Below are positions 53,916 to 57,167 of a stretch of DNA of 64,000 nt, in pieces. Under the pieces are notes generated by a model, which searched no databases, had not been told where the DNA came from, and worked only from the letters and a program-made list of their open reading frames with translations. Position 1 is the stretch's first letter, and every line of letters starts with the position of its first letter. Source of the stretch: Mycetocola lacteus (GTDB lineage: Bacteria > Actinomycetota > Actinomycetes > Actinomycetales > Microbacteriaceae); the NCBI RefSeq assembly GCF_003667575.1, contig NZ_RCUY01000002.1, positions 248,001-312,000 of the forward strand, written 5' to 3'. The position numbers and the translations under genes were made by a program.

Positions 53916-56666
53916 TTAGATCCAGGAGTTGAAGCGGCGGATGAAGCGGCGCTTGGCCAGCTGTACCACCACACAGTAGGCGGCCAGGGTGGCGATCAGC
54001 CAGGGGAAGTAGGTCCAGGGCAGCGGCACCAGGCCGAGGCTCTGACCCCATCCGATAAAGGGCAGTACCAGACCAAAGACACACACGGCGCCGGTGGCCA
54101 GCAGCACCGAGAGGCTGGCCCGCGACTGGATGAAGGGGAGCTTCCGGGTACGCAGCAGGTGCACGATCAGGGTCTGCGAGATGATCGACTCGATGAACCA
54201 GCCCGACTGGAACAGGGCGGCGTGCTCGGGGGTGTTCGCAGCGAAGACAAACCACATCAGGGCAAACGTGGTGATGTCAAAGATCGAGGAGAGCGGTCCG
54301 ATCCGGATCATGAACCGGCTGAGGCTCTTGCTCTCCCAGGCGCGGGGCTTCTTCAGGTCCTCGGGGTCCACCTTGTCCCAGGGCAGGGTGAGCATCGAGA
54401 GGTCGTAGGTGAGGTTCTGGACCAGCACCACGATCGGGATCATCGGGATGAACGGCAGCAGGGCGCTGGCCACCAGGACCGAGAACATGTTGCCGAAGTT
54501 GGAGGAGGCGGTCATCGAGATGTACTTCATCGTGTTGATGAAGGTGCGGCGGCCCTCGATCATGCCCTGCTCAAGCACGGTGAGGTCCTTTTCCAGCAGG
54601 ATGATGTCGGCCGATTCCTTGGCGATGTCCACCGCGGTGTCCACCGAGATACCCACATCCGCGGTGCGCAGGGCGGGGGCATCGTTGATACCGTCCCCCA
54701 TAAAACCAACCGTGTGTCCGTGGGTGCGCATCGCCTCGACGATGCGGGCCTTCTGGGTCGGGGTGATCTTGGCAAAGATGGTGGTGGTTTCGGCAAGCTC
54801 ACCCAGCTCGACCAGGGTCAGGTTCTCGATCTCGGGTCCGGTCACGATGGTGCCCACATCCAGCCCCACCTCACGGCCCACGGTTGCGGCCACCAGTGCG
54901 TTGTCGCCGGTGATGACCTTGACGGTGGTGCCGTGAGTCTGGATCTGACGGATCGCCTCGGCCGCGCTGGCCTTGGGCGGGTCGAGGAACGCGAGGAACC
55001 CAACCAGGGTCATGTTCTGCTCATCGGCCAGGGTGTACTCGGTCTCATCACCCTCGGGACCCACCTCGTCGATGGTCTTGATCGCGACGGCGAGCACCCG
55101 CAGCCCCAGCGCGTTCTGCTCGGCGACCAGGTCCTCGAGCTCCATCAGGCGCATGGCCGACAGTGGACGCTGCTCCATCCCGTGCAGCTCGGTGGTGCAG
55201 AGGCCCATGACCTCCTCGACCGCACCCTTGGTGATGATGGTGTGGGTGAACCCGTCCCCCACCACCACGGACATCCGGCGGCGCACAAAGTCGAAGGGCA
55301 TCTCGTCGACATAGGTGTACTCGGCGGTGATCCGGTCCAGCTCGTCCTCGCCGGCGGCGGTCAGTACCGCGCCGTCCAGGAGGTTGCGCAGACCGGTCTG
55401 GAAGTGGGCATTGATCGCGCCGTAGCCGAGGGTCGACTCGCTGCTGCGGCCGTCCACGTCCAGGTGACGCTCAAGCACGATCCGGTCCTCGGTGAGGGTT
55501 CCGGTCTTGTCTGTGGCCAAGATGTCCATCGCCCCGAGGTTCTGGATCGAGTTCAGACGCTTGACGATCACCTTGTGCTTCGCCATGTGCTGGGCGCCCT
55601 TGGCGAGGTTCGCGGTGACGATCAGCGGGAGCATCTCCGGGGTCAGACCCACGGCGGTGGTCACACCAAAGAGCAGTGCCGTGGTCCAGTCCTTGGTCAG
55701 GCCGTTGATGATGAACACCACCGGGACCATGATCAGCATGAAGCGGATCAGGGTGAAGGACACCCGGCGGATACCCACATCAAACGCGGTCTCCGGTCGG
55801 GCCCCCACCAGGGTGCGGGCCATGGTGCCGAAGTAGGAGTTGTCGCCGGTGCCGATCACGATTGCGGTACCCGAGCCGGACACCACCGAGGTACCCATGA
55901 ACCCCAGGTTCGGGGCGTCCAGGATGTCCGCGATCTGCACCTTCCGGGCGGCCTCGATGGTCTTCTCGGCGGGCAGGGCCTCACCGGTCAGCATGGCCTG
56001 GTTGAGCTGCAGGTCCTTGGTGCGCAGGAATCGCACATCGGCGGGCAGCATGTCGCCGGCGGCGAACTGCAGCACGTCGCCGGGGACCACGTCGGTGATC
56101 GGCAGCTCGCGGGTCACCGCGGTCCCGTCCACCAGGCGGGTCACCGCGGTGGTGGTGCGCACCATGGCAGAGAGCTTCTGCGCGGACTTGGCCGAGCGGT
56201 ACTCCTGCCAGAAGCGCAGCACGGCCGAGACCAGCACCATGATGCTCACGGTGATCATGCCGGTGTAGTCGGGTCCGTCGGCCGGGTCGGCCATCCACAC
56301 ATCGGTCACCCACATCACGCCCACCAGGAACAGCAGGATCAGGATGAACGGGTTGAGGAAGGTCTTCAGGAACTGGACGATCGCGGGGGCCGGCTTGTCC
56401 CGACCGATCTCGTTGGCACCGAAGCGGTCGGTGCGCTCGCGCACCTGGTCCGGGGTCAGGCCGTTGAGGGTGCTCTGCTGGGCGAGGATGGTGGCCTCGG
56501 CCTCGCGGTGGGTGGCCAGCAGGAGCAGTTCCTGCTGCGCGGCGCTCAGCCCCTTGCCGGCGGTCTCGGTGAACCGGCGAGGGTTACGGGTGGGACGGGT
56601 GGGCGGCGGGGTTGCCGCCTCGAAGCTCGTGGTGGCCTCATCGAAGCCGCTGGTGGGGAAACGCAT
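53916..56666 (-). CDS. mgtA: Magnesium-translocating P-type ATPase
   Basis: A 916-aa P3B-type ATPase that imports Mg2+ under limitation. Motifs in order: LTGEALPAEK, the phosphorylation loop ILATDKTGTLTEDR, KVITGDNALVA, and MGDGINDAPALRTADVGISVD. About 10 membrane helices, and an N-terminal extension of about 45 residues rich in Pro/Thr. Start ATG 56666, ribosome binding site GAGAAGAGA. Its leader holds an M-box riboswitch and a small ORF, strong evidence for Mg2+ control. Confidence 0.97.
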   Translation of the reverse strand: MRFPTSGFDEATTSFEAATPPPTRPTRNPRRFTETAGKGLSAAQQELLLLATHREAEATILAQQSTLNGLTPDQVRERTDRFGANEIGRDKPAPAIVQFLKTFLNPFILILLFLVGVMWVTDVWMADPADGPDYTGMITVSIMVLVSAVLRFWQEYRSAKSAQKLSAMVRTTTAVTRLVDGTAVTRELPITDVVPGDVLQFAAGDMLPADVRFLRTKDLQLNQAMLTGEALPAEKTIEAARKVQIADILDAPNLGFMGTSVVSGSGTAIVIGTGDNSYFGTMARTLVGARPETAFDVGIRRVSFTLIRFMLIMVPVVFIINGLTKDWTTALLFGVTTAVGLTPEMLPLIVTANLAKGAQHMAKHKVIVKRLNSIQNLGAMDILATDKTGTLTEDRIVLERHLDVDGRSSESTLGYGAINAHFQTGLRNLLDGAVLTAAGEDELDRITAEYTYVDEMPFDFVRRRMSVVVGDGFTHTIITKGAVEEVMGLCTTELHGMEQRPLSAMRLMELEDLVAEQNALGLRVLAVAIKTIDEVGPEGDETEYTLADEQNMTLVGFLAFLDPPKASAAEAIRQIQTHGTTVKVITGDNALVAATVGREVGLDVGTIVTGPEIENLTLVELGELAETTTIFAKITPTQKARIVEAMRTHGHTVGFMGDGINDAPALRTADVGISVDTAVDIAKESADIILLEKDLTVLEQGMIEGRRTFINTMKYISMTASSNFGNMFSVLVASALLPFIPMIPIVVLVQNLTYDLSMLTLPWDKVDPEDLKKPRAWESKSLSRFMIRIGPLSSIFDITTFALMWFVFAANTPEHAALFQSGWFIESIISQTLIVHLLRTRKLPFIQSRASLSVLLATGAVCVFGLVLPFIGWGQSLGLVPLPWTYFPWLIATLAAYCVVVQLAKRRFIRRFNSWI

Positions 56667-56786
56667 GATGAATCTCTTCTCAAACCGGCGAGATCGAATC
56701 CGGGCGCGACAATTACCGCCTCAATTGGGGAGACGAATCATCAACAAACACCGGTTACGAGGGCTCGCAACGGGACATAAACTCGC

Positions 56787-56808
56787 CCCGATCTCGCTGA
56801 GGATCGGG
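56787..56808 (-). promoter_or_regulatory. Hairpin between leader ORF and mgtA
   Basis: CCCGATC and GATCGGG flank an 8-nt loop, 8 bp past the stop of the leader ORF. With no clean U-tract it could act as an attenuator hairpin, a Rho-related pause or a translation-coupled structure. Confidence 0.5.
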
Positions 56809-56816
56809 ACATGCGG

Positions 56817-56891
56817 CTACAGGGCCGGAGTGTTCTCCAGGCGGCCGCGTACTGGGTTAGTCAGGTACGAACGACTATGGTCCGCGCTCAT
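56817..56891 (-). CDS. 24-aa leader peptide upstream of mgtA
   Basis: A short ORF with one of the best ribosome binding sites in the window (AAGGAGGTGACC before the ATG at 56891). The peptide begins MSADHSRSYLTNPVRG and ends NTPAL, with two prolines. It lies between the M-box and mgtA, the position of MgtL in enterobacteria, where translation of Pro codons tunes mgtA transcription. The sequence is unrelated to MgtL by eye. A longer frame (to 57020) is open but has no comparable ribosome binding site. Confidence 0.65.
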   Translation of the reverse strand: MSADHSRSYLTNPVRGRLENTPAL

Positions 56892-56944
56892 CGCGGTCAC
56901 CTCCTTCACATATGCACACACTCCCACGCGCGTGAAGGCATGAA

Positions 56945-57120
56945 GCTTTGGGGGGCTTCGGTGCGCTACCTCCACGTAAGAGCTTTGGCACTGCACGACG
57001 TATCCCTCGCGGGAAGCCACTTGGGGTTAACCCTTAATCCGGGAGAACCTGTCCTAATCTTGGGCGTCTCTCGACGTCGTCAGATCAGTGGCCTATATTC
57101 GTGCAGGAGCCTCGCCTAAC
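56945..57120 (-). ncRNA. M-box (ykoK) magnesium riboswitch
   Basis: The minus strand begins GTTAGGCGAGGCTCCTGCAC at 57120, followed by ATATAGGC, CACTG and GAGACGCCC. These are the conserved 5' blocks of the M-box aptamer. Further conserved-looking blocks (CCAAAGCTCTTACGTGGAGG and GTAGCGCACC) occur near 56965-56995. It precedes mgtA, its usual target. The 3' limit is approximate. High Mg2+ should compact the aptamer and reduce expression. Confidence 0.9.
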
Positions 57121-57136
57121 GAAGTGCTGCGGGAAA

Positions 57137-57167
57137 AACATAGCACGACTTTGCCGACCGCGCACAA
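57137..57167 (-). promoter_or_regulatory. Candidate mgtA promoter
   Basis: TTGTGC (57162-57167) and TATGTT (57137-57142) on the minus strand, 19 nt apart, lie just upstream of the M-box and would start the transcript about 10 nt before it. The spacing is long, so the pair is tentative. Confidence 0.35.

Follow-up and report, generated by a model that had tools for sequence, protein, structure and literature searches.

In Mycobacterium tuberculosis, the M-box upstream of pe20 controls an upstream ORF, uORF2 (Rv1805A), through pairing among SD1, anti-SD and SD2 segments and through Rho-dependent termination, as set out in passages of D'Halluin et al. (2026, PMC12810186) that also give reporter and Rho-depletion data. 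The same passages place the main termination site upstream of uORF2 and call its peptide mycobacteria-specific, with a proline at position 7 in most sequences. A ribosome-protected uORF, called a vcgB homologue, was reported in 2016 for the M-box leader of Mycobacterium abscessus mgtE (passages of PMC4974804). In enterobacteria, full translation of the leader peptide MgtL at high Mg2+ permits termination, whereas drop-off at its EPDP motif at low Mg2+ gives mgtA expression (PMC11282234, in part). We analysed a 64-kb stretch of Mycetocola lacteus DNA (hereafter the window), in which an M-box and a short leader ORF precede mgtA. This locus is probably a variation on the translational M-box of mycobacteria.

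Layout of the mgtA leader and its expression platform

On the minus strand of the window, the M-box is followed by SD2, the leader ORF (uORF), a hairpin and mgtA. The parts are as follows.

56963..57130, minus strand: M-box (ykoK/Mg2+) riboswitch aptamer, RF00380 (cmscan 150.3 bits against a gathering score of 44, E 3.1e-34, positions 1-169).
56969..56976, minus strand: SD1-like anti-anti-SD CGUGGAGG, the 3' strand of P1 (GAGGU pairs with ACUUC in the Rfam structure; 8-pair complement of the anti-SD, one pair being G-U).
56931..56938, minus strand: predicted anti-SD CCUUCACG, partner of SD1 or SD2 (folds with and without imposed aptamer; shuffled linkers).
56895..56906, minus strand: SD2, the extended 12-nt Shine-Dalgarno sequence AAGGAGGTGACC of the leader ORF (from the sequence; an SD of this kind belongs to the rule that most leaders follow, see below).
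56882..56896, minus strand: start-codon hairpin CCGCG-AUGAG-CGCGG, with the start codon in the loop (permutation test on 39 representatives).
56817..56891, minus strand: leader ORF MSADHSRSYLTNPVRGRLENTPAL, 24 codons, ATG at 56891 and TAG at 56819-56817 (relatives share its SD, start and frame).
56874..56876, minus strand: conserved in-frame AGT, codon 6 of the leader ORF (codon counts across leaders).
56784..56811, minus strand: hairpin 5 nt past the uORF stop (terminator scan: 10-pair stem, loop of 8, tail AGTTTATGTC).
53916..56666, minus strand: mgtA, Mg2+-transporting P-type ATPase of 916 aa (TIGR01524, 1146.4 bits against a cut-off of 610.75).

The covariance score bears out the M-box of the original prediction. 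It is the sole RNA family above its gathering score in the 64 kb (cmscan), and an RF00380 search finds one M-box in the genome. The predicted 24-codon ORF with its strong SD upstream of mgtA is likewise confirmed, and a hairpin is present between the two, for which the original prediction had given a 7-bp stem. The frame of the ORF stays open far upstream, up to a GTG at 57020 within the aptamer (67 codons), so the ATG at 56891 was picked by means of its SD and of the relatives. No start codon is found just past SD1, and the window thus has no uORF1. A scan of named genomes with the MgtA protein gave two loci, of which the useful one is from the sister species only: MgtA of Mycetocola saprophilus exhibits 99% identity to the window protein in the best segment. 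Another terminator-like hairpin, with a TTTTT tail, lies at 57143-57163 of the window (minus strand), between the upstream ORF (end 57192) and the M-box.

The anti-SD CCUUCACG in the linker offers 8 complementary pairs to CGUGGAGG and 7 to the GUGAAGG of SD2, and SD1, anti-SD and SD2 are predicted to form two mutually exclusive pairings in the window leader. When the aptamer is held in its fold, the optimal structure (-132.0) contains the anti-SD:SD2 hairpin and SD2 is 12% unpaired. In the unconstrained fold (-137.1), the P1 3' strand lies on the anti-SD region and SD2 is 26% unpaired, being mostly paired even in this open state. Among 160 shuffled linkers, SD2 is equally closed in 5 and the change is equally large in 8. 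Over 63 leaders, the SD1 strand lifts SD2 accessibility by a mean of 0.114, compared with 0.024 for shuffled linkers (Wilcoxon p 0.005, an optimistic value since the leaders are related); taken singly, 17 of the 63 exhibit p<0.1, and 14 of those are mycobacteria-like. Duplex energies taken by themselves revealed no surplus of pairing (p<0.1 for 9 and 7 of the 63 leaders). In the 63-leader accessibility test, the cruder one, the window leader itself gave no gain (-0.08), the support for this leader coming entirely from the later full-leader test with shuffled linkers.

A helix flanks the uORF start codon, often placing it in a loop. Its strands elsewhere include GUCAU/AUGAC, GUCG/CGAC, CUGC/GCAG, GAAC/GUUC and GGGAC/GUUCC. 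The mean helix score is 9.17, and swapping the 5' and 3' halves among 39 representatives lowers it to 7.84 (sd 0.43; 0 of 500 permutations reach the observed score), in a test that was designed after the pattern had been seen in the same sequences and that includes some helices pairing with the SD, not around the start.

A leader ORF accompanying actinobacterial M-boxes

RF00380 hits were obtained in 3 of 4 genomes of the genus, 13 of 199 of the family, 15 of 396 of the order, 26 of 394 of the class and 22 of 296 of the phylum, in 18 of 398 of a larger family draw that overlaps the first, and in 76 of 148 genomes from the genus of one mycobacteria-like genome. All draws but the last together supplied 101 distinct leaders, among which L013 scores under the family cut-off. 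Families carry labels, f1 being the window's own; loci of f11 were termed mycobacteria-like from their PE-like downstream proteins.

We applied one fixed rule (GGAGG-type SD; ATG, GTG or TTG start; 10-60 codons; 20-300 nt past the aptamer) to 100 M-box leaders of actinobacteria, L013 being excluded, and it calls a short ORF led by an SD in 69, against 8.5 (sd 2.5) after shuffling of the 300 nt following the aptamer. The leader ORF is real. By hand, a uORF was called in 74 of the 101 leaders and found absent in 27. The 69 rule calls agree with the hand calls in the start codon (61) or in frame with another start (3; L004, L074, L103), and the remaining 5 (L012, L042, L094, L098, L102) are a different ORF or were not hand-counted. 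Hand-called uORFs are present in 17 of 21 leaders of f1, in all 32 mycobacteria-like and all 3 other leaders of f11, in every leader of f24 (4), f25 (4), f27 (3), f76 (3) and f98 (3), in 3 of 5 of f2 and in 2 of 10 of f50; none were called in f8 (1), f78 (3), f99 (3) or six leaders from five other labels. The same rule applied to other riboswitch leaders, from 36 M-box-bearing genomes, gave 0 of 30 for cobalamin (a set without the window's family, where there was no match) and 0 of 30 for TPP. The genes downstream of the M-box leaders, judged by eye from translations, are mgtA-, mgtC-, mgtE-, MntH-, ABC-permease- or PE-like; given this variety, the uORF goes with the aptamer and not with mgtA. 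The original prediction was to fall if start and frame were not conserved in relatives that keep the M-box; most of them do share the SD, the start and the frame.

These sequences indicate, as a new result, that the uORF extends well beyond mycobacteria, contrary to the "mycobacteria-specific" of one paper. We found no description of it outside mycobacteria and R. equi in the open-licence literature, mostly judged by title or abstract.

Some leaders depart from the common arrangement. Behind the M-boxes L050-L057 (f50), L045, L047, L014 and L015, the transporter is apparently the first gene, without a uORF. SD2 and the peptide pattern are kept in five leaders where the aligned start is replaced by ATT (L071, L077), CTG (L063, L103) or ACG (L042), which may be either rare starts or decaying copies. 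Three leaders from another class of the phylum (L086, L088, L090; f76) exhibit, by eye, a terminator-like hairpin with a T run after the aptamer and then an SD-led uORF (peptides MDSEPGSMC, MESDPGHRC and MESDPGSRC), so that terminator and uORF share one M-box leader.

Conservation of the leader peptide, named as a check in the original prediction, holds across families at the N-terminus and not at the C-terminus. The part conserved across families is about seven codons, M-[SD]-x-x-[DHGS]-S-[PR...]. The window and its sister have MSADHSR and another Mycetocola MDDGPSR; relatives include MDDPHSR, MSDDHSP and MSPSHSP, and mycobacteria-like loci MSSSDSP and MSPGDSP. Residue 7 is Arg in the window and Arg, Cys, Ser or Pro in relatives. 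The C-termini differ between families and are more retained within mycobacteria. Hand-called uORFs measure 13 to 106 codons (median 26), and rule-called ones 10 to 47. The Mycetocola sisters exhibit two uORF differences, both non-synonymous (N12T, R17C), and four uORF peptides searched against Pfam gave no match.

An acidic residue lies at positions 2-7 in 57 of the 74 hand-called peptides and is absent from those of f24 (0 of 4), f25 (0 of 4) and f27 (0 of 3); an MgtL-like acidic/proline drop-off was rejected as a general rule on these three families. The window peptide was said to look unlike MgtL, and this holds: D4 is the sole acidic residue of its first 18, the first proline is codon 13, and there is no early EPDP-type motif. 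MgtL-type sensing, by EPDP destabilisation and Pro codons, thus finds no counterpart in it.

A conserved in-frame AGT codon

Within codons 5-9 of the rule-called ORFs, 51 of 69 leaders carry AGT in frame 0, against 0 in frame 1 and 1 in frame 2; the hand-called ORFs (n=74) give 59, 0 and 1. Over codons 4-17 the counts are 54, 0 and 7 (n=69), with in-frame AGT in nine family labels (f1, f2, f11, f24, f25, f27, f50, f76 and f98). With codon 2 included they are 58, 0 and 8, against 7, 3 and 9 over codons 18-33; AGT at codon 2 is partly explicable by the start-codon hairpin, and this codon is therefore left out of the counts relied on. As a second set, 60 more leaders were drawn from roughly 150 places in mycobacteria-like genomes, and the same rule called an ORF in 57 of them. 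AGT is in frame at codons 5-9 in 56 of these 57 and in neither of the other frames, and codon 6 is AGT in 48 and another serine codon in none. As the second set shares its genus label with about one third of the first, it represents new sequences and not independent lineages.

The constraint bears on the codon and not on the residue alone. Serine at codon 6 is encoded by AGT in 49 of 55 cases (TCT 4, TCC 1, AGC 1), and three of the four TCT are from f27, where the motif sits further on. AGT is locally the rarest serine codon (94 of 1833 serine codons; 2.2 per 1000 codons), and serine at codon 4, an internal control, is AGC in 10 leaders and AGT in 9. Where the motif lies off codon 6 (e.g. L023, L048, L058, f27, f98, L128, L130, L141), it shifts by whole codons, which makes a codon the simplest reading of the triplet. 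At the motif, AGT is replaced by AAA (3), AGA (2, plus L035 at codon 7) and GAA (2), and in single leaders by TGT (L070), TCT (L046), AGC (L084) and CAC (L088).

Three other readings of the triplet were rejected. AGT might provide the stop of an overlapping uORF1, and 52 of 74 leaders do have a frame-2 stop (TAG, TAA or TGA) within 21 nt. As a full explanation this fails, since AGT is retained even with GAC as codon 5, when codons 5 and 6 form no stop, and since many mycobacteria-like leaders have frame 2 closed as early as -10. Pairing in cis is contradicted by the lack of enriched partners: GGACT, GACTA and GACTG are not above shuffles in the aptamer, SD1, linker, start region or downstream, and no helix covaries between codons 5-8 and the sequence upstream (477 of 500 permutations score as well or better). 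ACTG does exceed expectation in the aptamer (30 of 43 leaders, with 17.6 expected), where it belongs to the conserved aptamer sequence. An A/U bias for low structure near starts is countered by codon 7, which favours CCG/CCC, by the even use of AGC and AGT at codon 4, and by the main genes, with 1 AGT in 48 serine codons at positions 2-10 (84 genes).

The AGT codon may be a second signal, read by the ribosome. We suggest tentatively, giving it well under an even chance, that AGU (AAA, AGA or GAA in a few relatives) acts as a weakly paired rare codon near codon 6, in series with the aptamer, and that its slow decoding as cytosolic Mg2+ (or tRNA charging) falls would set the time of ribosomal shielding against Rho. 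Such a codon-specific Mg2+ sensor would be convergent with MgtL and common to much of the phylum. An AGU-codon constraint is not mentioned among the matches listed from the open-licence literature, nor did we meet a rare-codon constraint over nine sampled family labels in the literature searched.

Probable control of mgtA through the leader ORF

The uORF message is C-rich. Its C-G skew is 0.149, against 0.010 at 450-900 nt further on (mostly main gene), and is the higher of the two in 34 of 39 leaders; in the window, C/G is 1.3-1.5 over 56890-56791. This fits Rho loading unless ribosomes cover the message. In six mycobacteria-like leaders (L018, L019, L064, L066, L067, L072), a CGATCC block is seen by eye in the C-terminal uORF codons, and its complement, containing GATCGG, sits shortly 5' of the SD of the next gene; the two possibly form a long-range helix opened by uORF translation.

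We consider it probable, at roughly 65%, that this M-box is of the translational kind and acts directly on the leader ORF, mgtA being controlled by way of that ORF. Mg2+ is presumably the ligand, as the aptamer family implies. At high Mg2+, the aptamer would be closed with the SD1-like strand held in P1, the free anti-SD (CCUUCAC) would pair with GUGAAGG of SD2, the ORF would stay untranslated, and the naked C-rich leader would be exposed to Rho, stopping transcription ahead of mgtA. At low Mg2+, P1 would open and its 3' strand take the anti-SD region; ribosomes would then load at the freed SD2, translate the ORF and cover the C-rich message, and RNA polymerase would reach mgtA. The aptamer, the ORF with its conservation, the two exclusive pairings and the C-over-G bias come from computation, while the ligand, the direction of switching and the role of Rho are inferred. 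Given that the main termination site in M. tuberculosis is upstream of uORF2 (passages of PMC12810186), ribosomes covering the uORF message may explain the control only in part.

The original prediction put the M-box and the leader ORF as two layers of control. SD2 is inside the expression platform of the riboswitch, so they are not independent layers; most likely there is one pathway in series of aptamer, uORF, presumably Rho, and mgtA. The conserved AGT codon may still supply a second layer. In that reading, the M-box-gated ORF would also be a ribosome-read Mg2+ sensor like MgtL, by slow decoding or drop-off near AGT together with the short N-terminal peptide. The nearly exclusive frame of AGT (51 of 69 and 56 of 57 leaders), its rarity elsewhere, the lack of a cis partner and the frequent early acidic residue, in some peptides with proline (MDDPHSR, MSPDDSP, MESDPG), speak for it. 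The window peptide has neither the MgtL motif nor an early proline, however, f24, f25 and f27 lack the acidic residue, and we regard this sensor, with its supposed Mg2+ dependence of the AGT codon, as doubtful.

It is very unlikely that the uORF instead encodes a small protein with a function of its own, the proposal made for Rv1805A, with mgtA control as a side effect. The conserved N-terminus and an M-box-independent homologue in M. tuberculosis (passages of PMC12810186) would suit such a protein, but only about seven codons are kept across families, lengths and C-termini vary widely, two residues differ even between the Mycetocola sisters, no Pfam match was found for four peptides, and it is the codon that is preserved at position 6, not the residue alone. 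An intrinsic terminator or attenuator in the hairpin past the uORF, opened or closed by the terminating ribosome, is highly improbable. The 10-pair stem 5 nt past the stop matches the terminator scan and is kept in M. saprophilus with one substitution, in the loop; its T tract is weak, however, a third Mycetocola (L003, z -0.47) has no evident counterpart, and post-stop hairpins as a class are hardly above chance (mean z -0.37 over 69 leaders, 14 below -1.5).

Compared with known systems, the M-box of the serial pathway favoured here shares its aptamer family, RF00380, with Bacillus subtilis ykoK, where, unlike in the window, an intrinsic terminator acts on the transporter gene (PMC12810186, in part). 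With MgtL it shares a short leader ORF before mgtA, whose translation in enterobacteria is coupled to Mg2+-dependent transcription with Rho (PMC11282234, in part). Translation is expected to favour mgtA in the window, the opposite of MgtL, and the peptides are unrelated; the E. coli genome of the control set gave no match to RF00380. The M. abscessus mgtE leader likewise combines an M-box with a short uORF, ribosome-protected there, upstream of a Mg2+ transporter, and the passages of that source (PMC4974804) hold no platform or codon analysis such as ours. The pe20 leader (passages of PMC12810186) resembles the window in its M-box, the SD1-like strand at the aptamer end, the pyrimidine-rich anti-SD, the strong SD2 and the short conserved uORF before the gene. 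The window differs in its gene (mgtA), in lacking an SD1-led uORF1, in the start codon within a hairpin, in its Microbacteriaceae host and in the residue at position 7, Arg in place of the Pro of the uORF2 type. The N-terminal pattern M-S-x-x-[DH]-S-[P/R], with Ser6 encoded by AGT in MSADHSR, is shared with the mycobacteria-like loci of this analysis, to which the comparison refers. With the same architecture present beside Arg7, the statement that uORF2 is mycobacteria-specific, as worded in those passages, looks too narrow. The translational M-box of M. tuberculosis is suggested to be a general actinobacterial design, lying before mgtA-, mgtC-, mgtE- and MntH-like genes (by eye), including in easily handled hosts.
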